From Ignavibacteriota bacterium (GTDB lineage: Bacteria; Bacteroidota; Ignavibacteria; Ignavibacteriales; Melioribacteraceae), in assembly GCA_013112585.1 (NCBI GenBank), contig JABFGH010000038.1, positions 1 to 37,535 of the forward strand: a DNA stretch of 37,535 nt. The letters run 5' to 3'. Position 1 is the stretch's first letter. Each line of letters opens with the position of its first letter. Below are positions 12,964-37,414 of this stretch, one piece after another. The translations under genes and the position numbers were made by a program. A model generated the notes under the pieces. The model was not told where the DNA came from and made no database searches. It worked only from the letters and a program-made list of their open reading frames with translations.

Positions 12964-12982
12964 ACGAAACAAGGAATTAATT

Positions 12983-15900
12983 ATGAAAATTAAATTATTC
13001 ATATTACTGGCTGTCAGTCTTATTATTGCCGGAAGTACCTATGCCCAGGTTGCTAAAGATAAAGATGGTAATATTGATCTTAAACGATTATCCGAGGCTG
13101 ACGCTGAAAGATTATTTAGGAATCCCAGTAGTGATTTGATGCCGGAATTTTTGAAGATAGCCGGTAATCAGAGCATTATTAAGGAATCAATAATTAACGG
13201 TAATAAAATTACAACAATAGTTTTTAATTACGCTTCAATATGTGAACCAAATAGATTAGGAAATGTTGCCGACCTTGTTTGGCAGGGACTTGGGTACGGT
13301 TTTGAATTCGGTCCTTTGGCAGCAGCAGAGGTTCGAAGTGATTCCGGAACAATATTAAATATTGTATCCGACTCATTTATTAGAACCGGTCAGGGAGATT
13401 TTTCGCCTGATGGTACCGAAAAATGGGGATGGCTTCCTAAAGATGGTTATGTAGATGTAACTCAAGATGAAATTGCACGCTTGAATTCACCCGATACCGA
13501 TGGTGACGGTAAACCCGATAGCTGGCCCCCGGAGTTTTATGATGAGGATATAGGCAGGTATGTATGGCCCGCATTTTTAGGAGACCAGGCAACCGCACCC
13601 GATGAAGAAGTATTTTTTGTTGTTGATGATTTTACTAACAGAGAATTTGATTACTTCCCATTTGCCGATTCAAGTAAACGAGGAATTGGACTTGATATGG
13701 CGGTGAGAATTATTCAGTTTAACAATCCACTTGCAGAGGATATAATGTTTCTGGTTTACCAGGTAACTAATGCAAGTGAAAAAGTTCTTCCGCTTAACTA
13801 CTTTGGTATGCATGGTGATCCGCACGTTGGCGGTCCTTCTGATTATGCCGATGACTTTTCAGGTTTTGTTGATCCCTTTGGCAACAGTGAACAGAATGTT
13901 GAATTTCCGCAGAGATCGAGAAGCATGGTTTACTCATGGGATGATCCTCCGGTGGGTATGTTCGGAAGACCAACCGGTTACTTTGGTTGGAAGTTCCTAG
14001 AATCACCATCAATTTCAGATGACGGAATAGATAACGATGATGATGGAATAATTGATGAAACTCCGGATAACTCAGCCGGAACATTTATTGACGAAGAAAA
14101 CAGGTTTACAGGAATAGCCGATATTGCAAAATACACCGCTGTTTACGGTGAGCCTAAAGCACGCTTTGCAGGTGATGAAGACGGCGACTGGAACCCCCTA
14201 AAAGATGATGTGGGAATTGACGGTATTGGTCCTGATTCCCCGAATTATCCAGGTCCCGATTACGGTGAAGGCGATGGCTTACCATCCCAAGGCTGGTTTT
14301 TGGATATTGACGGAGATGGGAGATATGACCCAAGCGAACCTATTTCAGATGAAAGAATTGCCGGTTACAAATGGGCTGGTTCAGAATTAAACTTTGGTTT
14401 AAGAGATATCTCAGAATCTGATCAAATTGGTCTGACTAGTTTTCATGCTGCGATTTATACTAATGGACTTCCAAACGTTCCTTTAAATGATCCCCTTATG
14501 TGGGAATGGTTGTCAAGTGATACGCTTGTAGTAGAATTTGAACAGCCGGGAGATAACGTATTTAACTTTGGTACAGGTCCTCTCAGTTTAGAGCAGGGAG
14601 AAACGCAAAGATTTTCAATGGCTATACTTTTTAGTAATGATTTACAGGAACTTATTCTAAATGCAGAAACTTCTACTAGAATATTGGAAGCAGATTATAG
14701 ATTTGCCCAGCCTCCTGCAAAACCCCTTGTTACCGCAGTTCCCGGAGATGGAAGAGTAACACTTTACTGGGATAATAGATCTGAAAGTTCAGTTGACCCG
14801 CTCTCCGGTGAAATGGATTTTCAAGGATATAAAATTTACAGAAGCCGCGATTACACATTTGCCGATGTATTTACTATAACAGATGCTGCTGGTAATCCTT
14901 TCCTTGGTAAAGGCATTGCCCAATTTGATGTTGTTGATTCACTTTCAGGATTGCATCCCGTTGAATACCTCGGAAGAGGAATTAAATATGATGTAGGAAC
15001 TAACAGCGGGCTTGTCCACGAGTATGTTGATTCAACTGTTACAAACGGTATAAAATATTTTTATGCAGTTGTTGCTTACGATGGCGGTATTATTCGTCCG
15101 GGACAGGAACTGCCTCCAACTGAAAATCAAGCTGTTATTTCGCGAGACCCGATTACCGGTGAATTAACATTTGCAGAAAATACAGTGCAGGTTATTCCAG
15201 GTCCTGCAGGCAAAGGCTTGGTAAGTGCACAAGCCGGTACATTAGGTAAACCTAATCAAGTTGTTGGTAATTCAACCGGCGATGTTTTATTAAAAATATT
15301 AAATGATGCCGCAGTTGTTGATGATAAAATATATTCAATTGACTTTGCCAGCCCTACAGTTTATAGCATAAAAGATTCAACCGGTTTTATGGATAGGTTT
15401 ATATCAAACGATACAGTATTCGTTACTCTTAAGCAGTCAAATCTTATTGCCGAAAGTGCAGTTGTTACCGACCTTAACGGAAGTGTTATTCCTGCCGATA
15501 GATATGTAATAGAACCTATTGACGGAAAAATAAAAGGAGCATCAATCGGCTCCCTAGTAAAGGGTGAAGAATATCTTGTAACTTATCAATATTTCCCTGT
15601 TTTCAATAGTGAAAGAATAGATAACGAAGATTCAAATCCGGTTTTTGACGGAATAAAAGTTTTCGTTCAAAACGAACCGCTTGAATTAAATGTTGAAGAT
15701 TCAGAATTTAATAATTCAGATATCAATATAAATGCTTTAGTACGTGAGGCAACACTAGGTGCACAGAACGATATCAGAGGTGAGTGGGAAATTAGATTCC
15801 TTGACCTCGATACACTTGCAGACGGTACATGGCAAAATATTGGTGATACAACAATTAACCAGCAGCTTGGTGAAGTTGTTTGTCCATTCAATATTAAATA

Positions 15901-16504
15901 TGTTCTTGATACTGAAGAGAAAGGTAACTTCCTTATAAATGAAGGAATTAATACTCTTAATGGATCGTGGGACTGGAAGGAGCCTATAATTCTTCAGCCT
16001 CCGGGTGATGATCCGCAATTCAATACGACTTATGAAATTGTGTTCAGCATTCCTGATTCTGTTGATGGCGAATTAGTATTGCCAAAAGCCGGAGATGTAT
16101 TTTTTGTTAAAACAAATAGACCATTCGAGTCAGGAGATAAATACACATTCCAAACCAAAGGAGTTGAATATAAGCCTGAGGTTGCAAGTGCTAATTTGAA
16201 TGAAATTTATGTTGTACCAAATCCTTATGTAGCTTTTAGTCTTTCCGAAGACCCCGGATTATTACCGGGTACAAGAGGGGCAAGAGATATTCAATTTAGA
16301 AATTTACCGCCTGAATGTACAATTAAGATTTTTACAATTACAGGCGAGTTGGTTCAAACAATTGAAAAAAACGATAACTCGAGTCTGGCAAGATGGGACT
16401 TACTTTCATTTGAAGGACAGAGAGTTGCTTATGGTGTCTATGTTTTCCACGTTGATATACCGAACGTAGGCGAAAAAATTGGAAGATTTGCAGTGATAAA
16501 ATAA
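12983..16504 (+). CDS. Very large secreted protein with variant T9SS sorting domain
   Basis: The start is set at ATG 12983 (AAGGA ribosome site and a clean signal peptide, MKIKLFILLAVSLIIAGSTY then AQ); an upstream TTG in frame overlaps the receptor gene and lacks these. The 1173-residue product has several acidic, calcium-site-like stretches: DTDGDGKPD at about 171, DDGIDNDDDGIIDET at about 345, DIDGDGRYDPSE at about 445. A fibronectin-III-like domain follows at about 575-700 (PAKPLVTAVPGDGRVTLYWD, GYKIYRS). The C-terminal 100 residues are a sorting-domain variant: VVPNPYVAF, IQFRNLPPECTIKIFTITGE, AYGVYVFHVDI, ending FAVIK rather than KKMxxxK. It probably crosses the outer membrane through T9SS and acts at the surface with the receptor and the PorV-like barrel encoded beside it. 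The function is unknown. Confidence 0.9.
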   Translation: MKIKLFILLAVSLIIAGSTYAQVAKDKDGNIDLKRLSEADAERLFRNPSSDLMPEFLKIAGNQSIIKESIINGNKITTIVFNYASICEPNRLGNVADLVWQGLGYGFEFGPLAAAEVRSDSGTILNIVSDSFIRTGQGDFSPDGTEKWGWLPKDGYVDVTQDEIARLNSPDTDGDGKPDSWPPEFYDEDIGRYVWPAFLGDQATAPDEEVFFVVDDFTNREFDYFPFADSSKRGIGLDMAVRIIQFNNPLAEDIMFLVYQVTNASEKVLPLNYFGMHGDPHVGGPSDYADDFSGFVDPFGNSEQNVEFPQRSRSMVYSWDDPPVGMFGRPTGYFGWKFLESPSISDDGIDNDDDGIIDETPDNSAGTFIDEENRFTGIADIAKYTAVYGEPKARFAGDEDGDWNPLKDDVGIDGIGPDSPNYPGPDYGEGDGLPSQGWFLDIDGDGRYDPSEPISDERIAGYKWAGSELNFGLRDISESDQIGLTSFHAAIYTNGLPNVPLNDPLMWEWLSSDTLVVEFEQPGDNVFNFGTGPLSLEQGETQRFSMAILFSNDLQELILNAETSTRILEADYRFAQPPAKPLVTAVPGDGRVTLYWDNRSESSVDPLSGEMDFQGYKIYRSRDYTFADVFTITDAAGNPFLGKGIAQFDVVDSLSGLHPVEYLGRGIKYDVGTNSGLVHEYVDSTVTNGIKYFYAVVAYDGGIIRPGQELPPTENQAVISRDPITGELTFAENTVQVIPGPAGKGLVSAQAGTLGKPNQVVGNSTGDVLLKILNDAAVVDDKIYSIDFASPTVYSIKDSTGFMDRFISNDTVFVTLKQSNLIAESAVVTDLNGSVIPADRYVIEPIDGKIKGASIGSLVKGEEYLVTYQYFPVFNSERIDNEDSNPVFDGIKVFVQNEPLELNVEDSEFNNSDININALVREATLGAQNDIRGEWEIRFLDLDTLADGTWQNIGDTTINQQLGEVVCPFNIKYVLDTEEKGNFLINEGINTLNGSWDWKEPIILQPPGDDPQFNTTYEIVFSIPDSVDGELVLPKAGDVFFVKTNRPFESGDKYTFQTKGVEYKPEVASANLNEIYVVPNPYVAFSLSEDPGLLPGTRGARDIQFRNLPPECTIKIFTITGELVQTIEKNDNSSLARWDLLSFEGQRVAYGVYVFHVDIPNVGEKIGRFAVIK

Positions 16505-16549
16505 TAGATGTCCGATAATGGATATCAAAATTTTACGGAGAAAAGTTTT

Positions 16550-17587
16550 ATGAAAAAGATTTTTATAACTTCAATAGCTCTAATATTCAGTATTGCAATT
16601 ACATCAAATGTAAATGCACAACTGTTCGGCACTACTTCCAAAGTGGGCACTACAGCAGCTCAGTTCTTGAAAATAGGTGCCGGTGCCCGTGCAATTGGTA
16701 TGGGCGGAGCATTTGCATCAATACCGGATGATATTTATTCCATCTATTGGAACCCAGCCGGTATTGCTACTAGCAGAAGCAACGGTCAAGTATCATTCAA
16801 TCATGCAAATTGGATTGCCGAAATGGATTATGATTTTGCCGGCGGTTCAATAAACCTTGGAGGAATGGGAACCATTTTCGGTAGTTTTACCTCTTTCAGA
16901 ATTCCTGAAGATAAGGTTAGAACTATTGAAGACCCTGAAGGTGACGGACGAACCTGGGATGCAGGGTCTATATCGATAGCTGTCGGTTACGCAAAAATGC
17001 TTACTGATAGATTCTCGATCGGGTTCACCGCCAAATTTGTGCAGGAACGAATTTGGAATTCAACGGCAAGCGGATTTGCTTTTGATGTTGGTACACTTTA
17101 CCGCACACCTTTTAATGATTTAATGATCGGTGCTGCAATTTCTAATTTCGGTACATCTATGCAGTTAGATGGAAGAGATATTCAATTTAATTCCGATCCT
17201 GATGATAACATTGATACGGGTCCAAATAATGTGAAGTCTCTTTACGATATGGATGCATTTGATATGCCGCTTTCGTTTAGAATTGGTCTCTCGATGAATG
17301 TTTTGGAAACTAGATTCTTAAGAGCAACAGCATCGCTTGACGCTGCTCATCCTAACGACAATGTTGAGTACGTTAATGCAGGTGTTGAATTTGCTTATGA
17401 TGAAACATTGTTTTTACGAGCTGGTTACAAATCATTGTTTTATGATGAAGCTGAAGAAGGCTTAACTCTCGGCGGCGGTATAAAATATGAATTTGCCCCG
17501 AATCTAAAAATTGTTGTTAACTACGCTTATGCAGATTTTGGTTTATTTGATAACGTACAATTTTTTGATTTTGGTTTAGTTTTTTAA
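16550..17587 (+). CDS. PorV/PorQ-family outer-membrane beta-barrel
   Basis: ATG 16550 is chosen because it has a CGGAG site nine bases upstream and starts a normal signal peptide (MKKIFITSIALIFSIAITSN, then VNAQ); the in-frame extension upstream has neither. The mature protein opens with the family hallmark: AAQFLKIGAGARAIGMGGAF, then DDIYSIYWNPAGIA, followed by alternating barrel strands and a C-terminal phenylalanine (FFDFGLVF). PorV in characterised T9SS binds exported cargo and shuttles it from the translocon to the attachment complex; many Ignavibacteria-type genomes hold several paralogues. Its position, 45 bases after a protein with a sorting domain, suggests a dedicated carrier for that cargo (inference). 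A strong terminator follows. Confidence 0.92.
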   Translation: MKKIFITSIALIFSIAITSNVNAQLFGTTSKVGTTAAQFLKIGAGARAIGMGGAFASIPDDIYSIYWNPAGIATSRSNGQVSFNHANWIAEMDYDFAGGSINLGGMGTIFGSFTSFRIPEDKVRTIEDPEGDGRTWDAGSISIAVGYAKMLTDRFSIGFTAKFVQERIWNSTASGFAFDVGTLYRTPFNDLMIGAAISNFGTSMQLDGRDIQFNSDPDDNIDTGPNNVKSLYDMDAFDMPLSFRIGLSMNVLETRFLRATASLDAAHPNDNVEYVNAGVEFAYDETLFLRAGYKSLFYDEAEEGLTLGGGIKYEFAPNLKIVVNYAYADFGLFDNVQFFDFGLVF

Positions 17588-25603: not shown

Positions 25604-28600
25604 ATGGCAAAGTATTTTAAAATAATTTGTCTTAAACTACTCTTCCTTTCTTCAATAATTTCTCAAACTAAAAATATCCGGTTTGAAACGCTGGACATAG
25701 ATGCAGGGTTATCCAACAATACCGTTAATTGCATCCTGCAGGATAAACAGGGTTTCATGTGGTTTGGAACGAACAACGGATTGAATAAATTTGATGGATA
25801 CGAGTTTACACAATATTTTTCAACCTATGGTGACTCTAATAGTATTAGTGATAACTTAATATTTTCTATATGTGAGGATTACTCAGGAAACATTTGGATC
25901 GGCACTTCAAACGGACTGAATTTGTTTGATCCCGCAAAGGAAAAATTTCATCGAATCTTTAACAATCCGCTAGATTCATCCGGTTTGCCAAGCAATACTG
26001 TTTACTCAATTGTCTGTAGCCGCGATTCAAACCTCTGGATGGGTACGGCAGATGGATTAGCACTATTAGATACTTCGGAAATTCAAAAAGTAAAATGCAG
26101 TCAACCGCCAAAATTTAAAACGTATATGCACTATCCGCTTACTGGGTTATCATTAAAATCTAATGAAATTCGATATTTAATGGAAGACAGATTGGGACGT
26201 TTGTGGATATCATCATGGTGCAAAGGCATTAGTCTTTTTGATAGGAAAGAGGAACAGTTTATCAATTTTGAGGAGAGGGTAACGGATAAATCAGAAAATT
26301 GGAGTAAAAAGATTTTCAGCAAACTGCCCAGTTTGTGTATTTTTTGTTTTTCTCTGGATCCCTTTGATGATAATATATTATGGATGGGAGGTACTGAAAT
26401 ACTGATTAGATTTAATATTAATCAGAAAATATATACTGCTTATCATCCTGATCTCGTAAACACCCCTGATCGAATTCAATCAATTATTAAAATCTCTCAA
26501 CAAGAATCTTTAATAGGAACAGGCTATGGCTTATATATTTTTAACGAACAGTCAGAAGAGTTCTTCCAATATTTAAAGGATGCAGGTAATCCTGAAAGCA
26601 TTCCATCTAATAAAATAATAACCATATTTCAAGATAAAACGGGAATAGTCTGGTTGGGTACAGAGGGCGGCGGAATAAGTAAGTTTGATACTAGAGGGAA
26701 TAGTTTCCGCAAATTATTAAACCGTGAATACAGTGTAAATCTATCAGATAACACTGAGTTTTTACCTCTTCATGAAGATAAACAAAACAATAATTTATGG
26801 GTAGGAACAAGATCCAAAGGACTAATATCGCTTGAAACAGGAACAGGTGAGTCAACTTATTATTCCCTTGAAAACATAAGAAATCCAATGGGTGATAAAT
26901 CCAGCCGCACAACCATTATATCAATTCATCAATTTGTGGAGTCGCCCGAAATATTATGGATGGGGGTAGCGGGAAAAGGTTTAATTAAATTTAATAAAAC
27001 TAAAAATGAATTCACTCTATTTAATATGCTCTCCCCTTATTCAAAATTTGCATTACTTAACCGGGACAACCCTAATCTATTTTCTACGTTATTTATTCAG
27101 GAAATTGCGGAGGATAAATATAACACTTTATGGCTTGCCGCCCGTTTTGGGCTTTACAAGTTTGATACCGCGACTGAAACATTTTCAGCATTTAAAAATC
27201 ACCAAAATGATTCCAGCAGCATTGCTAATAATGACCTCACCTGCCTTCTTTTTGAAAATGATAATTCTTTATGGATTGGAACAAACGGCAGTGGTCTGGA
27301 TAAATTTGATGTGGGAAAAAATATTTTTTCGCATTTTACCCACGAGCCTAATAATCCAAATTCTATAAGCAGCAATTATATCATTTGCCTTTTCAAAGAT
27401 AAAAGTAACACAATCTGGATTGGAACTGAGTTGGGCTTGAACAAATTGGAAGTTATTAAAAACAAAAATAGAAATAATCCCGAGTATTTTTTCCGCAGGT
27501 ATTATAAAAAGGACGGACTGCCGAGCGGCAGAATTTTCGGAATTCTGGAAGATGACAGCGGAAATCTTTGGATTAGCACAGACAGGGGATTATCAAAGTT
27601 TGAAGTAAGCAAAAATCAGTTCACTAACTATGATAAGTTTGACGGTCTTCAAGGAAACGAATTCTACAAACGGTCATGTTTGAAAACATCTAAAGGCGAA
27701 CTATTATTCGGCGGACCCAACGGAATTAGTTCGTTCTTCCCTGATAGTATAAAAAGCAACTCGAATATTCCTGAAATTGTTATCACTGAATTTTTGCTAT
27801 TTAATAAAACTGTAAAACCGAAGAAAAATACATTGCTTGAGAAAACGATCACCGAAACCAATGAAATAATCTTAAATCACGATCAGTCTGTTTTCTCTTT
27901 TAAATTTTCAGCGCTCAACTATACTGCACCCATAAAAAATCAGTACGCATATAAAATGGAAGGCTTTGACCGCGAATGGGTTTTCACTAATTCTGAACAC
28001 CGGTTTGCTTCATATACAAATCTTGATCCGGGTGAATATGTTTTTAGAGTAAAAGGCTCAAATAATGACGGGGTCTGGAATACGAAGGGTGCATCAATTA
28101 AAATTACTATTCTACCTCCTTGGTGGGCAGCATGGTGGGCGTATTTAATATATGTAGTTTTTGCACTTTTTGTTTTTAGTGCATCGGCAATGTTTTATTT
28201 AAATCAGCAAAATCTTAAGTACAGACTTGAATTAGAACATGAACACTTCAAGAAATTATCCGAGCTGGATAAAGTTAAATCACGCTTCTTTTCAAATATT
28301 TCTCACGAATTCAGAACACCGCTCACATTAATAAAAGGACCGGTACAGCAAATAATTGATAAGACAAACGAAAGAGAAAATTTTAAAAACGCTAATCTGA
28401 TTTATAGAAATGCAAACAAACTTGACAAACTGGTTACACAGTTAATGGATCTATCTAAATTAGAAGCCGGCGCAATGAGGCTGAATGCGATAAGGAGCGA
28501 CTTAGTTTCTTTTTTCAAAAACTTTATATTGTCATTTGCCGCGCTAGCAGAGAGTAAAAAAATCAGTTTAAAATTCATTTCTGCTAATGAAGAAATTATT

Positions 28601-29866
28601 GTTTATTTCGATAGAGAAAAAGCGGAGAAGATTTTTAACAATATACTTTCAAATGCAATTAAGTTTACTCCAGCGGAAGGACAGATTAAAATAGAATTAA
28701 CAAAGAAAGAAAACTTTGCGGAGGTTAAAATATCTGATACAGGAATTGGAATACCTGCTGATAGACTTCCCAGAATTTTTGACCGTTTCTATCAAGTTGA
28801 AGTAAACCATAATTCATCACAAAGTGGAACAGGCATTGGTTTAGCATTGACGAAAGAATTGGTTGAACTTCACAACGGAGAAATTGAAGCAGTAAGTGAA
28901 GAGGGAGCGGGAACTTCGCTGATCGTAAAATTTCCCTTGGGTAAAGCTCATCTTAAAAAGGATGAAATAATTGATGAAGAAATTGAGCATGCAAAAGTAA
29001 TACAAACAAAATTTGATGAAAAAATTCCTCAAATATCCTCCATGGAAAAAAATGAATATCAAAATAATAATCTTGATTTGGAGCTTTTAAATGGAACTTC
29101 CGGTAAGCCCATATTATTGATTGTAGAAGATAATTTAGATTTAAGAATGTATTTGAGCGGATGCTTAAATAGTATTTATTCTGTTATTGAAGCAGTTGAC
29201 GGGCAGGATGGATATGAAAAAGCAATATATAATATGCCGGATATTATTGTAAGCGATATTATGATGCCGAAGATGGACGGATTTGAACTTTGCGAAAAAT
29301 TAAAATTCGATGAAAGAACCTGCCACATTCCGGTAATTTTACTGACAGCTAAAGCAGGCACTGAAAATAAAATTGAGGGTTTAGAAACTGGTGCAGATGA
29401 CTATATTACAAAACCTTTTGATGCTAAGGAGTTGAAAGCTCGCATTAAAAACTTAATTGATCAGCGTAAAAAACTATGGGATCATTTCCAAAAGGAAGGT
29501 TTAATCAGTTTTAACATTAAGGAGTTGACTTCTCTTGATAAAGATTTTCTAAAAAAGGTTTTAGATGTGATAAATAAGAATATCTCCAACACGGAATTTG
29601 GTGTCGAATTCTTTGCCGGTGAAATTGCACTTAGTCGTGTAACTCTGCATAAAAAATTAGTAGCACTTACCGGTGAAGCGCCGAGTGAACTGATCAAAAG
29701 AGCAAGACTTAATAAAGCCGCAAAATTATTGGAGAATAAAACCGGCAATATTTCTGAAATAGCATTTGAGGTCGGATTCGGCAATCCAGCATATTTTTCC
29801 GAATGTTTTAAAAAACAATTTGGCGTTAGCCCCTCAAAATATACACAAAATTATTTTCACACTTAA
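25604..29866 (+). CDS. Hybrid two-component system regulator (propeller sensor, kinase, receiver, AraC HTH)
   Basis: The single 1420-residue chain holds a full signalling pathway, the HTCS design of Bacteroidota. Order: signal peptide (1-20); periplasmic two-propeller region of Reg_prop units at about 25-720 (repeated GFMWFGTNNGLNKFD-type blades); a Y_Y_Y domain at about 745-835 (YAYKMEGFDREW, PGEYVFRVKGSN); a membrane helix at about 845-868; HisKA with the phospho-acceptor His901 (NISHEFRTP); HATPase (SDTGIGIP, GTGIGLALTKELVELHNG); receiver with phospho-acceptor Asp1218 (VSDIMMPKMDGFE) and KPF; and a C-terminal AraC-type HTH at about 1310-1420 (ISEIAFEVGFGNPAYFSECF). It senses a periplasmic ligand, commonly an oligosaccharide, and activates nearby genes. 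GCGGAG precedes the start. The target may be the secreted-protein genes downstream (inference); no SusC/SusD pair is present. Confidence 0.97.
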   Translation: MAKYFKIICLKLLFLSSIISQTKNIRFETLDIDAGLSNNTVNCILQDKQGFMWFGTNNGLNKFDGYEFTQYFSTYGDSNSISDNLIFSICEDYSGNIWIGTSNGLNLFDPAKEKFHRIFNNPLDSSGLPSNTVYSIVCSRDSNLWMGTADGLALLDTSEIQKVKCSQPPKFKTYMHYPLTGLSLKSNEIRYLMEDRLGRLWISSWCKGISLFDRKEEQFINFEERVTDKSENWSKKIFSKLPSLCIFCFSLDPFDDNILWMGGTEILIRFNINQKIYTAYHPDLVNTPDRIQSIIKISQQESLIGTGYGLYIFNEQSEEFFQYLKDAGNPESIPSNKIITIFQDKTGIVWLGTEGGGISKFDTRGNSFRKLLNREYSVNLSDNTEFLPLHEDKQNNNLWVGTRSKGLISLETGTGESTYYSLENIRNPMGDKSSRTTIISIHQFVESPEILWMGVAGKGLIKFNKTKNEFTLFNMLSPYSKFALLNRDNPNLFSTLFIQEIAEDKYNTLWLAARFGLYKFDTATETFSAFKNHQNDSSSIANNDLTCLLFENDNSLWIGTNGSGLDKFDVGKNIFSHFTHEPNNPNSISSNYIICLFKDKSNTIWIGTELGLNKLEVIKNKNRNNPEYFFRRYYKKDGLPSGRIFGILEDDSGNLWISTDRGLSKFEVSKNQFTNYDKFDGLQGNEFYKRSCLKTSKGELLFGGPNGISSFFPDSIKSNSNIPEIVITEFLLFNKTVKPKKNTLLEKTITETNEIILNHDQSVFSFKFSALNYTAPIKNQYAYKMEGFDREWVFTNSEHRFASYTNLDPGEYVFRVKGSNNDGVWNTKGASIKITILPPWWAAWWAYLIYVVFALFVFSASAMFYLNQQNLKYRLELEHEHFKKLSELDKVKSRFFSNISHEFRTPLTLIKGPVQQIIDKTNERENFKNANLIYRNANKLDKLVTQLMDLSKLEAGAMRLNAIRSDLVSFFKNFILSFAALAESKKISLKFISANEEIIVYFDREKAEKIFNNILSNAIKFTPAEGQIKIELTKKENFAEVKISDTGIGIPADRLPRIFDRFYQVEVNHNSSQSGTGIGLALTKELVELHNGEIEAVSEEGAGTSLIVKFPLGKAHLKKDEIIDEEIEHAKVIQTKFDEKIPQISSMEKNEYQNNNLDLELLNGTSGKPILLIVEDNLDLRMYLSGCLNSIYSVIEAVDGQDGYEKAIYNMPDIIVSDIMMPKMDGFELCEKLKFDERTCHIPVILLTAKAGTENKIEGLETGADDYITKPFDAKELKARIKNLIDQRKKLWDHFQKEGLISFNIKELTSLDKDFLKKVLDVINKNISNTEFGVEFFAGEIALSRVTLHKKLVALTGEAPSELIKRARLNKAAKLLENKTGNISEIAFEVGFGNPAYFSECFKKQFGVSPSKYTQNYFHT

Positions 29867-30985: not shown

Positions 30986-31885
30986 ATGAAACATTATAGA
31001 AATTTATTTATTACAACTTTACTGGCACTCTTTATTATAATCCCAGCGCTCTCTAAAGCTACAGTTGCCAGCAATCATCACAAGAGCCCGATGAGAAGTA
31101 TATGTGATTATTCATTTGTTGCCCACTTAGAGATATTGGATGACGATGGAAGATTGCTTGTATGGAAAGCACCTCTTAAAGGAGATATAGTTGGTTATAT
31201 ATTATGGTGGTTTAACCCAGAGGGACCTCCTGATCTGATTCATGCAGACTTTGTCGTGAGTTTTTATACTGCTAGGTGGGAAATCTATGATACAGATCCT
31301 CTTCCTCCGGACAGTTCTGGAGGACTTGCTTCTAATCCGGACGCTAATCTACTCATGGCTGGATTCAGTAAAGGTCAAAGCTTATTCCCATCAGATCCTC
31401 CCGGATCAGACGTATTGTGGGACGGAGCAGGCATAGTCACGAAAACGAACAGGCAGTTCAGGAAATGGAAAGGCGGTATTATGTATGAGGGTGGACCTGT
31501 TGTAATTTCTACCTTTCCATATTATGGCACAGGTAAAATCCGCATTCATCCACGTTGGTTTCGTTTTCGCGATCTTTTTAAAAACCAAATAGATGGAACT
31601 ATAAAGGAACAAAATTTACCAAAAGATTTAAAGGTTTTGAATAATTATCCAAATCCCTTCAATCCATCAACCACTATTGAATTTCATATTGCTGCAGCAA
31701 CACAGGTTAGAATTGATATCTTCAACATTATGGGACAAAAAGTTAAAACACTTTTAGATCAAGAAATGCAAGCAGGAAATCACAAAGTGGAATGGAATGC
31801 TTCGGAGATAGCAAGTGGAATTTATTTTTACAAAGTTCAAGCCAACGGAATCCAAGAAGTGAAAAGGATGATCTTGATTAAATAG
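30986..31885 (+). CDS. T9SS cargo protein of unknown function
   Basis: The 299-residue product has a signal peptide (about 1-27, hydrophobic LLALFIIIPAL), a passenger of about 170 residues with many Trp/Phe residues (ILWWFNPEGPP, LVWKAPLKGD, FRKWKGGIMYEGGPV), and a canonical sorting domain from about residue 212: LNNYPNPFNPSTTIEFHIA, IFNIMGQKVKTLL, ASGIYFYKV, ending VKRMILIK. The passenger is not recognised; its Trp-rich strands are loosely like those of the upstream lipoprotein, so the two may be partners or distant relatives (inference). GGAGG lies five to nine bases before the ATG. T9SS would export it and cleave the C-terminal domain. Confidence 0.9.
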   Translation: MKHYRNLFITTLLALFIIIPALSKATVASNHHKSPMRSICDYSFVAHLEILDDDGRLLVWKAPLKGDIVGYILWWFNPEGPPDLIHADFVVSFYTARWEIYDTDPLPPDSSGGLASNPDANLLMAGFSKGQSLFPSDPPGSDVLWDGAGIVTKTNRQFRKWKGGIMYEGGPVVISTFPYYGTGKIRIHPRWFRFRDLFKNQIDGTIKEQNLPKDLKVLNNYPNPFNPSTTIEFHIAAATQVRIDIFNIMGQKVKTLLDQEMQAGNHKVEWNASEIASGIYFYKVQANGIQEVKRMILIK

Positions 31886-32083
31886 AGTTTACACAAAGTA
31901 ATTTGTCCATCAGTAAAACGATGATTTATTGAGGGACTATTTTACAAAAGAAAGGAATTTATTTTAGAGAAGGAAAATAACTTGCTCAACTTAGTTCTAT
32001 AAAAAAAACCTTAAGTGAGATTTTTTTGAATGGTTTTTTCATCGGCAAGTAATGAAAGCTAATCACATAAAAGTGGGTAAATT

Positions 32084-33976
32084 ATGAAAATAAGTATCTT
32101 ACATTTTTTTCTATTTGCTTTTTTGTTTTCATCAACAAACTTTTCACAAGAAGTTGTAAACGCCAGTTTTGAATTTGATGGAGTAACACGGGACTACATA
32201 GTGTTCCTTCCACAAAGTTATGAACCAAATATGCCGGTAGTATTAAATCTGCACGGTTATACAGACAACGCACAATGGCAAATGGAATATTCACTAATGA
32301 ATGACGTTGCTGATACTGCCGGATTTATTGCGGTTTATCCAAATGCTGTTTGGCCCGGCTTTAATACTGGGCTTATATACGGCAGTTGGCCGCCGCTTCA
32401 TACACATATTGATGACGTTGGTTTTATTTCAGAATTAATTGATACAATAATCTCGGTTTATAGTGCTGATAAAAACCGTATTTACTGCTGCGGATATTCA
32501 AACGGCGGGATGATGACATTAAAGCTGGCTGTTCAACACGGGCATAGGTTTGCTGCATTCGGTTCTGTGGCAGGCGTATTAATAGATCCCATATTAGAAC
32601 GTTATAATGTGTTGGGAAATCTTCCAATGATTTTTTGCCATGGTACGGATGATGTATTAGTTCACTACAACGGTGGACCATATCCAATGATGTGGTCGGT
32701 TGACGAAACTATTGACTTTTGGGTGCAGAATAATAATTGTAATCCGTTTTACACCTCTGTAATGCTGCCGGATGTTGATACAACAGACGGATGTACTGTA
32801 GAAAAAAGAACCTACAAGGACTTTTCAAACAATGCTCAAATTGAATTTTATAGGGTAATTGATGGAGGACATAATCCCCCAGGTGCTAATCCGCATCCAG
32901 ATTACAGGTGGTCTAACGAAGGGAATATAAACAGGGATATTAATTTTAATTCAGAACTTTGGAATTTCTTTAAAGATTATGAAAATCATTTAGTGGATAT
33001 GGCTTATGCAGAATCATTTGATATTTATCCAAATTATATAGAGTCAAACGGAGGTACGCTAAATATAAATGCACAGCTCGTTAACCCGGAAAACCATACT
33101 GCAAAAGTATATGCTCTTCTCAATGCTGATTCATCCGCATTTCAGGATTCAATAGAATTATACGATGATGGAATGCATAACGATGGAGATGCTAATGACA
33201 ATTATTGGGGAGGATCAAAGTTCCTATCCGGTTTGGATATAGATTATTACAACACTTCACTCTACACAAATGACTTGATGCATAATACAACAAATCTATA
33301 CCGGTTTCAATCCCGTTTTACTACAACAGGTCCAATTGAAACAGAATCCTATACTATCGTAAACATCAGTGAAAACCGAAGAGGTTTAACTGAATTTACA
33401 CTTAAAAATTCCGGTTCAGAGAAAACTATTGAAGATGTAAGAGCGAGATTAAAAACATCAGATACATGCGTAACTGAAATAACTTTAAACGATACTTACT
33501 TTGGAGATATTGGACCTGGCGAGAGTAAAACAGTTGCAGTTGGATTCGCATTTACTTTCAGCGCATGTACAATAGTTGAGTTTGAATTGGAAATTAGCAG
33601 TGGCGGAATTGTTTTCTGGAGAGATACATTAATGATTGATGTAGTTACTTATATAAGTAATAAATCATCAACTCAGCCAAATGAATTTGCACTTATGCAA
33701 AATTTCCCAAATCCGTTTAATCCAAGTACAAAAATAAAATATGAATTGCCGAAAATCGAAAATCGAGAATCAGTGATCGTTCAACTTATAGTTTACGACA
33801 TCCTCGGCAACGAAATTGCAGACCTAGTTAATGAACCCAAACCACCAGGCACATATGAAATTGAATTTGATGCTAGTGATTTTACGAGTGGAATATATTT
33901 TTACAGTCTGCAAGTTTACACGCCTGGGCGTGCTGGTGATTTTGTTGAGACTAAAAAGATGCTGCTGATAAAATAG
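32084..33976 (+). CDS. Secreted alpha/beta-hydrolase esterase (PHB-depolymerase/feruloyl-esterase type) with T9SS domain
   Basis: The 630-residue protein has a signal peptide (to about 21) and an esterase of the PHB-depolymerase/LpqC/feruloyl-esterase kind at about 22-305. The fold marker is LNLHGYTDNAQ. The nucleophile elbow is GYSNGG with Ser139, the likely acid is in HGTDD (Asp189 or Asp190), and the likely base is His263 in GGHNPPG. A module at about 305-525 follows (beta-rich, with LYDDGMHNDGDAND and FGDIGPGESKT), then the sorting domain: LMQNFPNPFNPSTKI to KKMLLIK. It would be exported and act on an extracellular ester: polyester, hemicellulose-bound hydroxycinnamate or an acetylated sugar; the sequence does not decide. 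The 305-525 module is repeated in the kelch protein encoded next. Confidence 0.92.
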   Translation: MKISILHFFLFAFLFSSTNFSQEVVNASFEFDGVTRDYIVFLPQSYEPNMPVVLNLHGYTDNAQWQMEYSLMNDVADTAGFIAVYPNAVWPGFNTGLIYGSWPPLHTHIDDVGFISELIDTIISVYSADKNRIYCCGYSNGGMMTLKLAVQHGHRFAAFGSVAGVLIDPILERYNVLGNLPMIFCHGTDDVLVHYNGGPYPMMWSVDETIDFWVQNNNCNPFYTSVMLPDVDTTDGCTVEKRTYKDFSNNAQIEFYRVIDGGHNPPGANPHPDYRWSNEGNINRDINFNSELWNFFKDYENHLVDMAYAESFDIYPNYIESNGGTLNINAQLVNPENHTAKVYALLNADSSAFQDSIELYDDGMHNDGDANDNYWGGSKFLSGLDIDYYNTSLYTNDLMHNTTNLYRFQSRFTTTGPIETESYTIVNISENRRGLTEFTLKNSGSEKTIEDVRARLKTSDTCVTEITLNDTYFGDIGPGESKTVAVGFAFTFSACTIVEFELEISSGGIVFWRDTLMIDVVTYISNKSSTQPNEFALMQNFPNPFNPSTKIKYELPKIENRESVIVQLIVYDILGNEIADLVNEPKPPGTYEIEFDASDFTSGIYFYSLQVYTPGRAGDFVETKKMLLIK

Positions 33977-34040
33977 ATGAATACTGTCGTCAACAATAAA
34001 TTTGTGTGAGGAACAATACAAAATTTTATTGAGGTGTAGA

Positions 34041-35918
34041 ATGTGCAAAACCAATTTTAGTACTATAATAGTTTTAATACTGTCGCTTTTAATTTGCAAC
34101 AAATCCAAAGCACAATGGTCTCAAGTAACAGATATGCCGACAGCAAGAAATGCGCATGCTGTTGGAATGGTGAACGGAAAGATTTATGCCGTAGGAGGCG
34201 AACAAGCAAATTCAAGAACTTTGGAAGATTATGATCCAATAACTGATACCTGGACAGCAAGGGAAGATATGCTCACTGCAAGAAGTTTTTTAACTTGCAA
34301 TGTTGTAAATCAAAAGATATACGCCATTGGAGGATATAATACTTCACAATCTCAATCTACTGTTCCAGCAGTAGAGGAATACAATCCGGCAACTGATACC
34401 TGGGAGACTAAATCTCCAATGCCGGAAGCTAGATGGGGGCATGGAACGGCAGTGATTGATGAAAAGATATATGTTATTGCTGGCGCAAGAAATTGGCCGA
34501 TTAATAGACTGTACAATGACGTAAAGGTATACGATCCTGTTTTAAATACATGGACTACAAAGTCTTCGGTATCGATAAAAAGATGGGGTGTTTCGTGCTG
34601 TGTTGTAGATGGAAAAATTTATGTTATTGGAGGATACAACGGTACTGGTATATCGACAGTTGAGGTATATGATCCGGAATCTGATTCCTGGACAACAAAA
34701 TCACCCTTGCCGACTCCAAGATGGGGGCATACTACGAGTGTTGTAAATGGAAAAATTTACGTTATTGGAGGTGCAGAAGTTTACCCGCCGACAGAAGCTC
34801 TATCTCTTGTAGAAGAATATGATCCGGTGACAGATTCCTGGACGCCAAAAGCTCCCATGCCTGTTGGTCGTATTGCTCACGCTCCCTCATCAGTTTCAAT
34901 AGATGGAAAAATCTATTTAGTTGGCGGTGGTGGACTTGAATCTACTGATGTATATTCAGAAGTCTTTGTTTTTAAACCATGTGATTTTTGGATTGTATCA
35001 GCTGGAATTTCTTCGAAGAATATTTTGCCCAATGGTGATAGTCTTAAAATAGCTGCTCAAATAGAAAATCCTGAAAACCATCAATTAAATGTATTTGCTG
35101 TGGTAAACGGTGAAGAAAATGTAAATCAAGATTCAATTCAGTTGTTTGAAAATGGACTTGATGATGTTGGAACAGTTAGCAGTAGCTTGTGGAGTGGTGA
35201 AAAATGGTTTTCTTCACTGCCCGAAGATGTTTATAGCATAGAATTCTCATTAAATGCTAGCAGGCATTTACTTCCGTTCAACATTCATTGTACATCAGCA
35301 GGTCCAATTATTATTGAATCATACTCTGTTGTAAATATAAATAATACTACTGTAGGGCTCGGTGATTTTACCCTAAGAAATAACGGATCAGTAAAGACAA
35401 TAAGAAATGTAAAAGCCAAATTAAAAACGGAAAATTCGTGTGTAACCGAAATTTATTTGAACAATACAAGTTTTGGTGATATTGGACCAGGCGAAAGCAA
35501 AACAGAACAATTTGGTTTTGCATTTTACCACAGCTGTAGTGGACTCGTTGAGTTTGAATTAGAAATAAGCAGTAATGGAATTGTTTACTGGAGAGATTCA
35601 CTAACTATTGATCTGTCACCAACGGATGTAGAAAATGAAATTTCAAATCAGCCAAAAGATTATGTGCTTGAACAAAATTTCCCAAATCCATTTAATCCAA
35701 CAACTTCAATTTCATATTCAATTCCAAAACAGTCTCATGTAAATCTAAAGGTTTTTGATGTACTAGGGAACGAAATAGCTGAAATAGTAAATGAAGAAAA
35801 ACCAATTGGGACTTTTGAAATTGAGTTTGATGCTTCTAACTTAGTTAGCGGCATCTATTTTTACAAACTAAGAGCAGGAGGATTTGTAGAAACGAAAAAG
35901 ATGATATTTTTAAAATAA
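34041..35918 (+). CDS. Kelch beta-propeller T9SS cargo protein
   Basis: The start at ATG 34041 is preferred: GAGGTG lies about five bases upstream and the signal peptide (ending KAQ) follows directly; an in-frame upstream ATG at 34002 would add 13 poorly fitting residues. The 625-residue protein has six kelch repeats at about 25-310 with KIYAVGG, KIYAIGG, KIYVIAG, KIYVIGG (twice) and KIYLVGG, each followed by a YDP-x-TDTW-type strand, so a six-bladed propeller. Then a module homologous to residues 305-525 of the preceding esterase (PENHQLNVFAVVNG, FGDIGPGESKTEQFGFAF, VEFELEISSNGIVYWRDSL) and a sorting domain ending KKMIFLK. Kelch propellers mostly bind proteins or sugars; no catalytic residues can be named. 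Confidence 0.93.
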   Translation: MCKTNFSTIIVLILSLLICNKSKAQWSQVTDMPTARNAHAVGMVNGKIYAVGGEQANSRTLEDYDPITDTWTAREDMLTARSFLTCNVVNQKIYAIGGYNTSQSQSTVPAVEEYNPATDTWETKSPMPEARWGHGTAVIDEKIYVIAGARNWPINRLYNDVKVYDPVLNTWTTKSSVSIKRWGVSCCVVDGKIYVIGGYNGTGISTVEVYDPESDSWTTKSPLPTPRWGHTTSVVNGKIYVIGGAEVYPPTEALSLVEEYDPVTDSWTPKAPMPVGRIAHAPSSVSIDGKIYLVGGGGLESTDVYSEVFVFKPCDFWIVSAGISSKNILPNGDSLKIAAQIENPENHQLNVFAVVNGEENVNQDSIQLFENGLDDVGTVSSSLWSGEKWFSSLPEDVYSIEFSLNASRHLLPFNIHCTSAGPIIIESYSVVNINNTTVGLGDFTLRNNGSVKTIRNVKAKLKTENSCVTEIYLNNTSFGDIGPGESKTEQFGFAFYHSCSGLVEFELEISSNGIVYWRDSLTIDLSPTDVENEISNQPKDYVLEQNFPNPFNPTTSISYSIPKQSHVNLKVFDVLGNEIAEIVNEEKPIGTFEIEFDASNLVSGIYFYKLRAGGFVETKKMIFLK

Positions 35919-35944
35919 ATGATGAGCAAATATTAAATTTAATG

Positions 35945-35974
35945 GAAACCCGTTATAAGCGGGTTTCTTTTTTT
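35945..35974 (+). terminator. Rho-independent terminator after the kelch gene
   Basis: A perfect 8-bp stem, GAAACCCG (35945-35952) and CGGGTTTC (35960-35967), a seven-base loop and seven T, 26 bases past the kelch stop codon. Confidence 0.95.
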
Positions 35975-36043
35975 ATAATTCTTAAAATTATTTTTATTTC
36001 GTATTATCTTTTCAGATTCAAACAATAAACCAGTAGGTACAAA

Positions 36044-37414
36044 ATGAATAGACTAGTAATAATGTTATTACTTCTCCCATTTCTTATGGAAGCCCAAATA
36101 ATAACTAATTGGCAAACACTTCCAAACGCTCCTTTTGGATCAAGAATTAATGATGCATCATTTATTGATGAGGATTATGGATGGGTTGTGCGCGGTGCAG
36201 GTGAGGGATTTAGAACAACTGACGGCGGAGATACCTGGGATGTAATGTTAAATAGCGATTCAACTTTTTGGAGAAGCGTTACTTTTACGAATAAAAATTT
36301 AGGCTTTGCAGGGAATCTAGGTCCCGATGAATATGGCGGTTCACAAATTACAGACTCCAATTTAATTTACAGAACATCAGACGGCGGTGAGAACTGGGCA
36401 CCGATAGAAAATATAAGCGGCGAAACAGGCAAGGGAGTCTGCGGTATGCATGCGCTTGACAGTTTACATATTTATGCTGTCGGCAGAGTACGCGGACCAA
36501 GTTTTTTTATGAAGAGTACAGATGGAGGCATAAGCTGGACTTCAAAAAATATGAGTTTCCTGTCAGCAGGTTTAGTTGATGTTCATTTCTTCACTCCCGA
36601 TAGCGGTATTGCTGTAGGATTATCCAACTCCGAACATGCCTTATCAAGCGGAGTTGTTCTTATTACTTCCGATGGCGGAAGTACATGGACACAAAAATAT
36701 TTATCAAGCAGGCAAGGTGAGTGGGCTTGGAAAATTTCTTTTCCATCAAGAAATACGGGCTACATTTCTCTCCAGCGAAATGTTGGTGAACCTGTAAATT
36801 TTATTAAAACTACCGACGGCGGTAATACCTGGTTTGAAAAACAATTTTTCGAAACTCCATATTATGTTCAAGGGATGGGCTTTGCCAATGATACTCTCGG
36901 CTGGATTGGAGGCAATAGTTCACAAACCACTTATCAAACCACCGATGGCGGTGAAACTTGGTCACCTGCAAATTTTGGGACGAGGATAAATAGATTTTAT
37001 TTTGTGAATGAACTTTTGGGATATGCCGGTGGACAGACAGTTTATAAATACACAGGTCAGGTTGCAACATCGATTGATGATTTAGTTAAACCAGATGGTT
37101 TTTCACTTTCGCAAAATTATCCTAACCCATTCAATCCGACGACAAAAATAAAATTTACAATTCCGCAACTTACGCCAATTGAAGGCGGAACGAATAACGG
37201 AATACTATATGTAACATTAAAAATTTATGATACTTTGGGTAAAGAAGTTATGACAGTAGTTGATGAACAGATGAGTCCCGGAGAAAATCAAATTGAAATT
37301 TACGCAGGTGATCTAGCTTCAGGTGTATATTATTATCAGCTACAGGCAGGAGACCCTTCGGCAGGCTCAGGGCGTGGCTTTATTGATAGTAAAAAAATGA
37401 TAGTGGTTAAATAG
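36044..37414 (+). CDS. Asp-box (BNR/Ycf48-like) propeller T9SS cargo protein
   Basis: The 456-residue protein has a signal peptide (about 1-17, ending EAQ), then a propeller with six Asp-box turns: TTDGGDTW, TSDGGENW, STDGGISW, TSDGGSTW, TTDGGNTW and TTDGGETW, spaced by about 40-70 residues over residues 55-315. This is the Ycf48/BNR arrangement; such propellers are structural or ligand-binding and not necessarily sialidases (no sialidase arginine triad or FRIP motif was seen). The sorting domain runs from about residue 350 (LSQNYPNPFNPTTKIKF) to KKMIVVK, with a Gly/Ser-rich insertion (AGDPSAGSGRG). It has its own transcription unit behind the kelch terminator. The 121 bases after it contain nothing I can name. 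Confidence 0.92.
   Translation: MNRLVIMLLLLPFLMEAQIITNWQTLPNAPFGSRINDASFIDEDYGWVVRGAGEGFRTTDGGDTWDVMLNSDSTFWRSVTFTNKNLGFAGNLGPDEYGGSQITDSNLIYRTSDGGENWAPIENISGETGKGVCGMHALDSLHIYAVGRVRGPSFFMKSTDGGISWTSKNMSFLSAGLVDVHFFTPDSGIAVGLSNSEHALSSGVVLITSDGGSTWTQKYLSSRQGEWAWKISFPSRNTGYISLQRNVGEPVNFIKTTDGGNTWFEKQFFETPYYVQGMGFANDTLGWIGGNSSQTTYQTTDGGETWSPANFGTRINRFYFVNELLGYAGGQTVYKYTGQVATSIDDLVKPDGFSLSQNYPNPFNPTTKIKFTIPQLTPIEGGTNNGILYVTLKIYDTLGKEVMTVVDEQMSPGENQIEIYAGDLASGVYYYQLQAGDPSAGSGRGFIDSKKMIVVK

Follow-up and report, generated by a model that had tools for sequence, protein, structure and literature searches.

The first 37,535 nucleotides of contig JABFGH010000038.1, from an Ignavibacteriota bacterium of the Melioribacteraceae (assembly GCA_013112585.1; positions 1-37,535, hereafter the window), carry two adjoining genes for surface proteins with different heads, one of esterase type and the other of kelch type, joined to a homologous C-terminal half (Table 1). 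This half consists of a stalk of two domains, here called stalk domain 1 (SD1) and stalk domain 2 (SD2), and a tail resembling those that direct proteins to type IX secretion. The pair, labelled G000 in comparisons with other genomes, is considered here together with relatives that bear the same stalk. The two open reading frames lie on one strand and are separated by 25 bases, and a terminator-like hairpin follows the kelch gene, for which reasons a two-gene operon is possible. The consensus scan found no terminator-like site between the genes; it returned 2 sites in all against 2.6 expected from shuffles, so the hairpin is weak evidence. Kelch residue numbers are counted from the TTG at 34002 and would be 13 less if the start were the ATG at 34041, which precedes a likelier and more typical signal peptide (judged by eye).

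Table 1. Coordinates in the window of the two genes, their C-terminal domains and the hairpin that follows them.
Feature	Position	Strand	Description
Esterase-headed surface protein	32084..33976	+	Open reading frame, 630 residues: likely signal peptide (by eye), alpha/beta-hydrolase head, SD1, SD2, type IX-like tail
SD1 of esterase	33008..33328	+	Residues 309-415; alignment boundaries; model strands 5-109
SD2 of esterase	33329..33643	+	Residues 416-520; begins at GPI, holds FGDIGPGESKT; model strands 114-215
Type IX secretion-like C-terminal tail of esterase, including stop	33644..33976	+	63% identical to kelch tail
Kelch-headed surface protein	34002..35918	+	Open reading frame, 638 residues from TTG
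SD1 of kelch protein	34992..35300	+	Alignment boundaries; 34% identical to esterase SD1
SD2 of kelch protein	35301..35615	+	Alignment boundaries; 65% identical to esterase SD2
Type IX secretion C-terminal tail of kelch protein, including stop	35616..35918	+	PF18962 and TIGR04183 over cut-offs
Terminator-like hairpin with T run, 3' of kelch gene	35944..35968	+	Consensus scan

In a single BLASTP comparison of the two proteins, esterase residues 311-630 align with kelch residues 333-638 at 165 of 321 positions identical (51%; E = 1e-99). The initial annotation had described an alignment to the ends of both proteins from residues of about 305 and 310; the ends are borne out and the beginning moves to about 311 and 333. 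The shared motifs that it quoted, FGDIGPGESKT among them, are present in both proteins, and its description of the heads as unrelated agrees with the BLASTP output, in which only the C-terminal alignment is long, the other fragments have E-values of 0.38 or worse and those that reach into the esterase ahead of residue 311 have E = 2.9 or worse. The similarity is not confined to the sorting domain, as both SD1 and SD2 also align, and the stalk is homologous over its whole length in the two window genes. Alignment of the DNA, over the intervals of Table 1, gives homology throughout but of uneven degree: in a codon-based comparison the amino acid and nucleotide identities of the pair are 34% and 54% in SD1, 65% and 69% in SD2, and 62% and 66% in the tail, SD1 lying far below SD2.

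The esterase head is probably an esterase-type alpha/beta hydrolase. It scores over the Pfam cut-offs for PF02230 (31.3 bits, cut-off 23) and PF10503 (29.3 bits, cut-off 23), and its alignment with the feruloyl esterase 9j07 (E = 2.4e-12) spans the GYSNGG motif and the GH..P region, both presumably catalytic; the profile for type 1 short-chain polyhydroxyalkanoate depolymerases, NF050058, gives 142.1 bits, under its cut-off of 150. In the kelch head Pfam recognises six PF01344 stretches.

Structure prediction for the stalk and tail gave three all-beta parts, with strands at model residues 5-109, 114-215 and 244-325 (model residue 1 is esterase residue 305), in a model of moderate quality (mean predicted local distance difference test score 67.8, predicted template modelling (TM) score 0.44, alignment of 6 rows). 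Foldseek placed this model among tandem immunoglobulin (Ig)- and fibronectin-like proteins, including PorU of Porphyromonas gingivalis (6za2); the matches are to generic tandem beta-sandwiches, with a highest query-length TM-score of 0.33 among the 50 listed. The stalk would therefore appear, as far as the model goes, to be two Ig-like all-beta domains. Compared by sequence with solved structures, the stalk profile had no match (best E = 1.5), Pfam gave no consistent family name for the stalk, and no paper dealing with it was found, by title or abstract opening, among the matches listed. The nearest named family is choice-of-anchor X (NF041940), to which SD1 appears distantly akin: its match lies within the esterase SD1 and scores 19.8 bits, under the cut-off of 25, and across a set of 21 stalks it matches 10 at E up to 0.1 (best 3.4e-10). 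The esterase SD2, by contrast, falls outside the match, and a search of the window kelch stalk with this profile found none.

The kelch tail scores over both PF18962 (42.7 bits, cut-off 27) and TIGR04183 (40.5 bits, cut-off 23), as type A cargo does; the esterase tail is alike and falls below both (25.7 and 18.8 bits), and it resembles many other tails in the genome. At least 150 type IX tails are encoded there (the best 150 of 232 candidates, all over cut-off), and the type IX machinery is represented by a PorU-type sortase (990.8 bits, cut-off 420) and by a PorV-family gene in the window. Both proteins are probably type IX secretion cargo. Type A cargo is a family defined by the tail alone (PMC10202324), so that the stalk lies outside its definition.

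Full copies of the stalk were found in only two places in the 4.9 Mb window genome, the adjoining esterase and kelch genes; in relatives it stands under other heads. A search with the esterase stalk of 97 genomes, a number that counts the window's own and no other of its genus, matched 14 at E = 1e-3, many only partly, and a nine-row profile matched 35 of 164 genomes of the order at the same threshold, with full-length stalks at 20 places in 13 of them (E = 6.4e-38 or better; next match 1.2e-7). At E = 1e-10, at least 23 of 391 genomes of the class and at least 5 of 395 in an overlapping sample of the phylum were matched, counts that are lower bounds because at most 7 candidates per genome were scored. 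A further profile scan of contigs gave 5 loci, four with full stalks, three of which apparently belong to G025 and G036. From the class search, nine places with weaker or partial matches were not taken in, six of them being kept as loci. The collected set comprises 46 proteins from 28 genomes or records, 44 of them with both stalk domains, and was sorted by head from blastp clusters and Pfam matches of representatives: S41 22, GH130-like 8, esterase 5, kelch 3, M14 3, beta-lactamase-like 2, beta-helix (a label given by eye) 2 and unknown 1. Pfam confirmed the S41, beta-lactamase, GH130 (27.7 bits, cut-off 26), kelch and M14 heads on representatives. The idea of a common presentation stalk under different heads is thus upheld more widely than in the pair for which it was put forward, with at least seven head types shown among relatives by profile and sequence matches. 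Two S41 proteins with SD1 only (G402 and G302) and G572 were left out of the trees. The last of these lies outside the class and encodes a beta-helix-like protein with the same stalk (L172, 1216-3261); the architecture is therefore either old or transferred.

The two stalk domains do not tell the same history. In the set of 21 proteins, the nearest relative of SD1 has the same head and lies in another genome for 16, and lies in the same genome for none; the nearest relative of SD2 lies in the same genome for 8 of the 21, that is, for 8 of the 11 proteins that have a genome-mate. These eight rows are four pairs rather than eight events: esterase/kelch of the window (65% amino acid identity) and of G062 (80%), and kelch/GH130a (68%) and S41/GH130b (76%) of G138. 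Mean identities for SD1 are 26.5% within a genome (n = 11), 41.5% within a head type (n = 31) and 25.6% where neither is shared (n = 168), and for SD2 they are 49.5%, 34.7% and 28.8%, respectively; for the tails the values are 63.8% (n = 5), 52.9% (n = 23) and 52.0% (n = 125). In the wider set of 44 proteins, the number of nearest relatives from the same genome, among the 26 rows with a genome-mate, is 5 in SD1 (2 with a different head) and 12 in SD2 (9 with a different head), and 12 of 17 same-genome pairs with different heads are more alike in SD2.

The fewest head changes required are 11 on the SD1 tree (10-11 in bootstraps) and 16 on the SD2 tree (14-16). Changes of genome label over the 11 order-level rows number 7 for SD1, a value as low being found in 1000 of 1000 shuffles, and 4 for SD2 (9 of 1000); over all 26 rows they number 16 (5 of 1000) and 14 (0 of 1000). 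In approximately unbiased (AU) tests, the three order-level esterases as one clade were rejected in SD2 (p = 3e-43) and not in SD1 (p = 0.54), and the esterase and kelch proteins of G062 as one clade were rejected in SD1 (p = 1e-7) and form one clade in SD2 (support 99/94). These results show that SD1 and SD2 have conflicting histories in some relatives, with SD1 mostly following the head, and that in several genomes SD2 matches that of proteins in the same genome with other heads.

The DNA of certain relatives bears what appear to be marks of such exchange. In the esterase/kelch pair of G062, nucleotide identity is 47% in SD1, 88% in SD2 and 71% in the tail, with synonymous divergence (dS) of 1.15, 0.27 and 1.29, a pattern that looks as it would after gene conversion. 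The S41/GH130b pair of G138 is 43% identical in SD1 (dS 1.99) and 82% in SD2 (dS 0.54). The best upward step in identity falls at alignment column 156 in the G062 pair and at column 158 in both G138 pairs (0 of 2000 permutations each); SD2 begins at column 163, so that the step comes 5-7 columns earlier in three of the four pairs tested, which were picked because their SD2s are alike. In the beta-helix genes of G025 and G036 (L067 and L068), probably orthologues, dS is 0.38 in the head, 1.27 in SD1, 0.32 in SD2 and 1.01 in the tail, which suggests replacement of single domains (SD1 and tail); their proteins are alike in head and SD2 (91%) and less so in SD1 (58%) and tail (68%). Two S41 paralogues of G322 have the whole C-terminal half in common (dS 0.29, 0.38 and 0.59), whereas their heads have a DNA identity of 48%.

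The esterase genes of G322 (L144) and G202 (L145) are near identical (head dS 0.01) and differ in the tail after an NPFNP motif. Replacement of the tail there (dS 0.70) was considered and then given up, since a copy of the G202 tail stands at the end of the G322 contig and the difference may be an assembly error. Since this contig ends in the tail of its G202 counterpart, tails can evidently be mis-joined, and several collected rows are cut by contig ends or runs of N; it might be supposed on these grounds that the likeness of SD2 within genomes is itself an artefact of the assembly or binning of draft genomes. We consider this most improbable, given that, in the four pairs compared, 12-33% of bases differ between one SD2 copy and the other, which are therefore not one sequence placed twice, and that the window pair lies inside one contig.

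For the window pair itself, the SD1 tree joins the kelch SD1 to three order-level esterases and a GH130a protein of G138 (95/99), apart from the other two kelch proteins, and a single kelch clade is rejected by the AU test in both SD1 (p = 0.0011) and SD2 (p = 0.0004). Because its SD1 lies in the esterase clade, away from the other kelch SD1s, the tree supports the view that a kelch head was joined to an esterase-type stalk in the lineage of the window. Duplication followed by replacement of the head, as originally proposed, is sustained to that extent; the unit exchanged does not seem to have been simply the head. The window esterase SD1 is 48% identical to the esterase SD1s of other genera and 34% to that of its kelch neighbour; in SD2 the order is reversed, with 65% to the neighbour against 38% and 26% to other-genus esterases. 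Across three genomes the esterase head and SD1 show similar identities (48-52% and 47-49%), and their combination is therefore old. A later copying of SD2 between the window neighbours may have followed, as these identities do no more than suggest.

A simpler history would be a tandem duplication of the esterase gene with its stalk, replacement of one head by the kelch head and then faster evolution, for functional reasons, of the kelch SD1 than of its SD2. The genes are adjacent and on one strand, the kelch SD1 falls within the esterase-type clade, the SD2 tree already unites the pair (42/63), a single clade of the two in SD1 passes the AU test (p = 0.313), and the SD1 branch is longer for the kelch protein (0.98) than for the esterase (0.37). 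This history leaves an SD1 less like that of the neighbour than of esterases in other genera, with the opposite relation in SD2, and rates at the protein level do not explain why G062 and one G138 pair out of two are divided likewise, a split that is backed there by dS. We regard it as possible and on balance doubtful. A single duplication is in any case too simple for the relatives, which share SD2 under different heads and SD1s, even if duplication of the whole stalk is not rejected for the window pair.

It could also be that SD1 and SD2 form a common spacer under many type IX cargoes and that the two neighbours acquired the stalk independently. The seven or more heads that it carries would be in keeping with this, as would genomes that have it under an esterase without a kelch protein or under a kelch protein without an esterase, and a kelch tail whose closest match in the genome is not its neighbour's. 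The window genome, however, 4.9 Mb in size and encoding at least 150 type IX tails, yielded just two full copies, which are side by side, and the window SD2s are mutually nearest in both the 21- and the 44-protein sets; independent acquisition thus seems quite unlikely.

Several observations tell against recombination of the stalk domains, or limit how far it can be read from these data. For the window pair, the SD1 clade that is not rejected, the low SD2 support and a dS near saturation in all parts (1.24-2.0) make the case for separate domain histories weak, and its identity step falls inside SD2, at column 189 (2 of 2000 permutations). Its tails do not pair clearly either. With the esterase tail as query the kelch tail is the best other match (112.6 bits, next 105.5; best 150 of 227 candidates), but with the kelch tail as query four other tails (118.4 to 114.0 bits) outscore the esterase tail, fifth at 112.9 (best 150 of 224); a joint history of SD2 and tail was dropped on that account. 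SD2 of the G138 kelch/GH130a pair is 67% identical in DNA with a saturated dS of 2.49, and synonymous sites therefore give no support for a recent copy there. Among the 17 pairs with different heads in one genome, five show the greater likeness in SD1 (one each in G138, G202 and G423 and two in G322), SD1 also clusters by genome in the wider set of 26, less strongly than SD2, and at 71-81% identity among kelch, beta-lactamase-like and GH130-like proteins it too moves between heads. The relatives are draft assemblies, and some of the groups tested were picked after identities had been seen.

Taking both sides together, we think it likely that the esterase and kelch proteins are type IX cargo assembled from exchangeable parts, and that in relatives the stalk domains recombine near their joints. 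The kit would comprise a signal peptide, a variable head (an enzyme or a propeller), two Ig-like stalk domains and a tail for secretion and anchoring. Such proteins would be exported by Sec and then cross the outer membrane through the type IX translocon by means of the tail, after which the head would be displayed at the end of the two Ig-like domains, the stalk presumably keeping it off the tail; from homology, the stalk may also protect the cargo during export. Paralogues would recombine by copying or gene conversion, as the relatives support, to yield new combinations, with breakpoints tolerated mainly at domain joints or hinges because the domains there stay whole. In the lineage of the window a kelch head would have come onto an esterase-type stalk, with SD2 perhaps copied between the neighbours afterwards.

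Ig-like domains of cargo proteins were reportedly found by Sato and colleagues in 2018 to be essential for stability during type IX secretion; the window stalk resembles these in fold class, which in its case is known from a predicted model. The closest precedent for the arrangement is the RgpA/Kgp/HagA group of P. gingivalis, for which combinatorial modularity is described and gene conversion raised (PMC5266723). There, too, different catalytic heads stand over common, rearrangeable C-terminal modules, with an Ig fold and a conserved C-terminal domain, and what the proteins of P. gingivalis and P. gulae have in common are adhesin domains (CAD, DUF2436), some of which are repeats of identical sequence (PMC5266723). 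The system described here differs in having two Ig-like spacer domains beneath unrelated heads, a spread across a class and domains of conflicting history, and Pfam found neither CAD nor DUF2436 in the window esterase and kelch proteins at E up to 1. By analogy it would work like RgpA/Kgp/HagA but it is not a member of that group.

If this reading is right, some surface proteins of this lineage draw on a small kit of stalk parts, which recombine close to the joints between domains. A function or line of descent assigned from the C-terminal half would then mislead annotation, the joints would be natural sites at which to graft heads for surface display, and the group would make gene conversion among paralogous cargo of the type IX system testable by counts outside Porphyromonas. 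One might go further and suppose that, within any one genome, SD2 is a constant domain under unrelated heads: gene conversion bounded by the domain would keep its copies alike because all of them dock to one partner, for instance the translocon, the shuttle or a surface polymer. We hold this to be unlikely; were it so, a bacterial secretome would have a constant and variable layout, with SD1 and head varying over a constant SD2.

Elsewhere in the window, the PorV-family gene (16508-17587; PF19572 42.7 bits, cut-off 27) belongs to the family of the type IX shuttle and is preceded by a TonB-dependent receptor gene (10102-12963) and by an open reading frame of 1182 residues (12956-16504) for which Pfam gave no match at E up to 1e-5. 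The cluster to which the esterase and kelch genes belong comprises four consecutive genes on one strand (30986-37414) whose products have type IX-like tails, the others being the gene at 30986-31885 and one for a BNR/YCF48-type propeller (36044-37414). Upstream of this cargo cluster lies a gene for a hybrid two-component regulator of 1420 residues (25604-29866) with Reg_prop, Y_Y_Y, HisKA, HATPase, receiver and AraC-type helix-turn-helix domains, which could regulate it.

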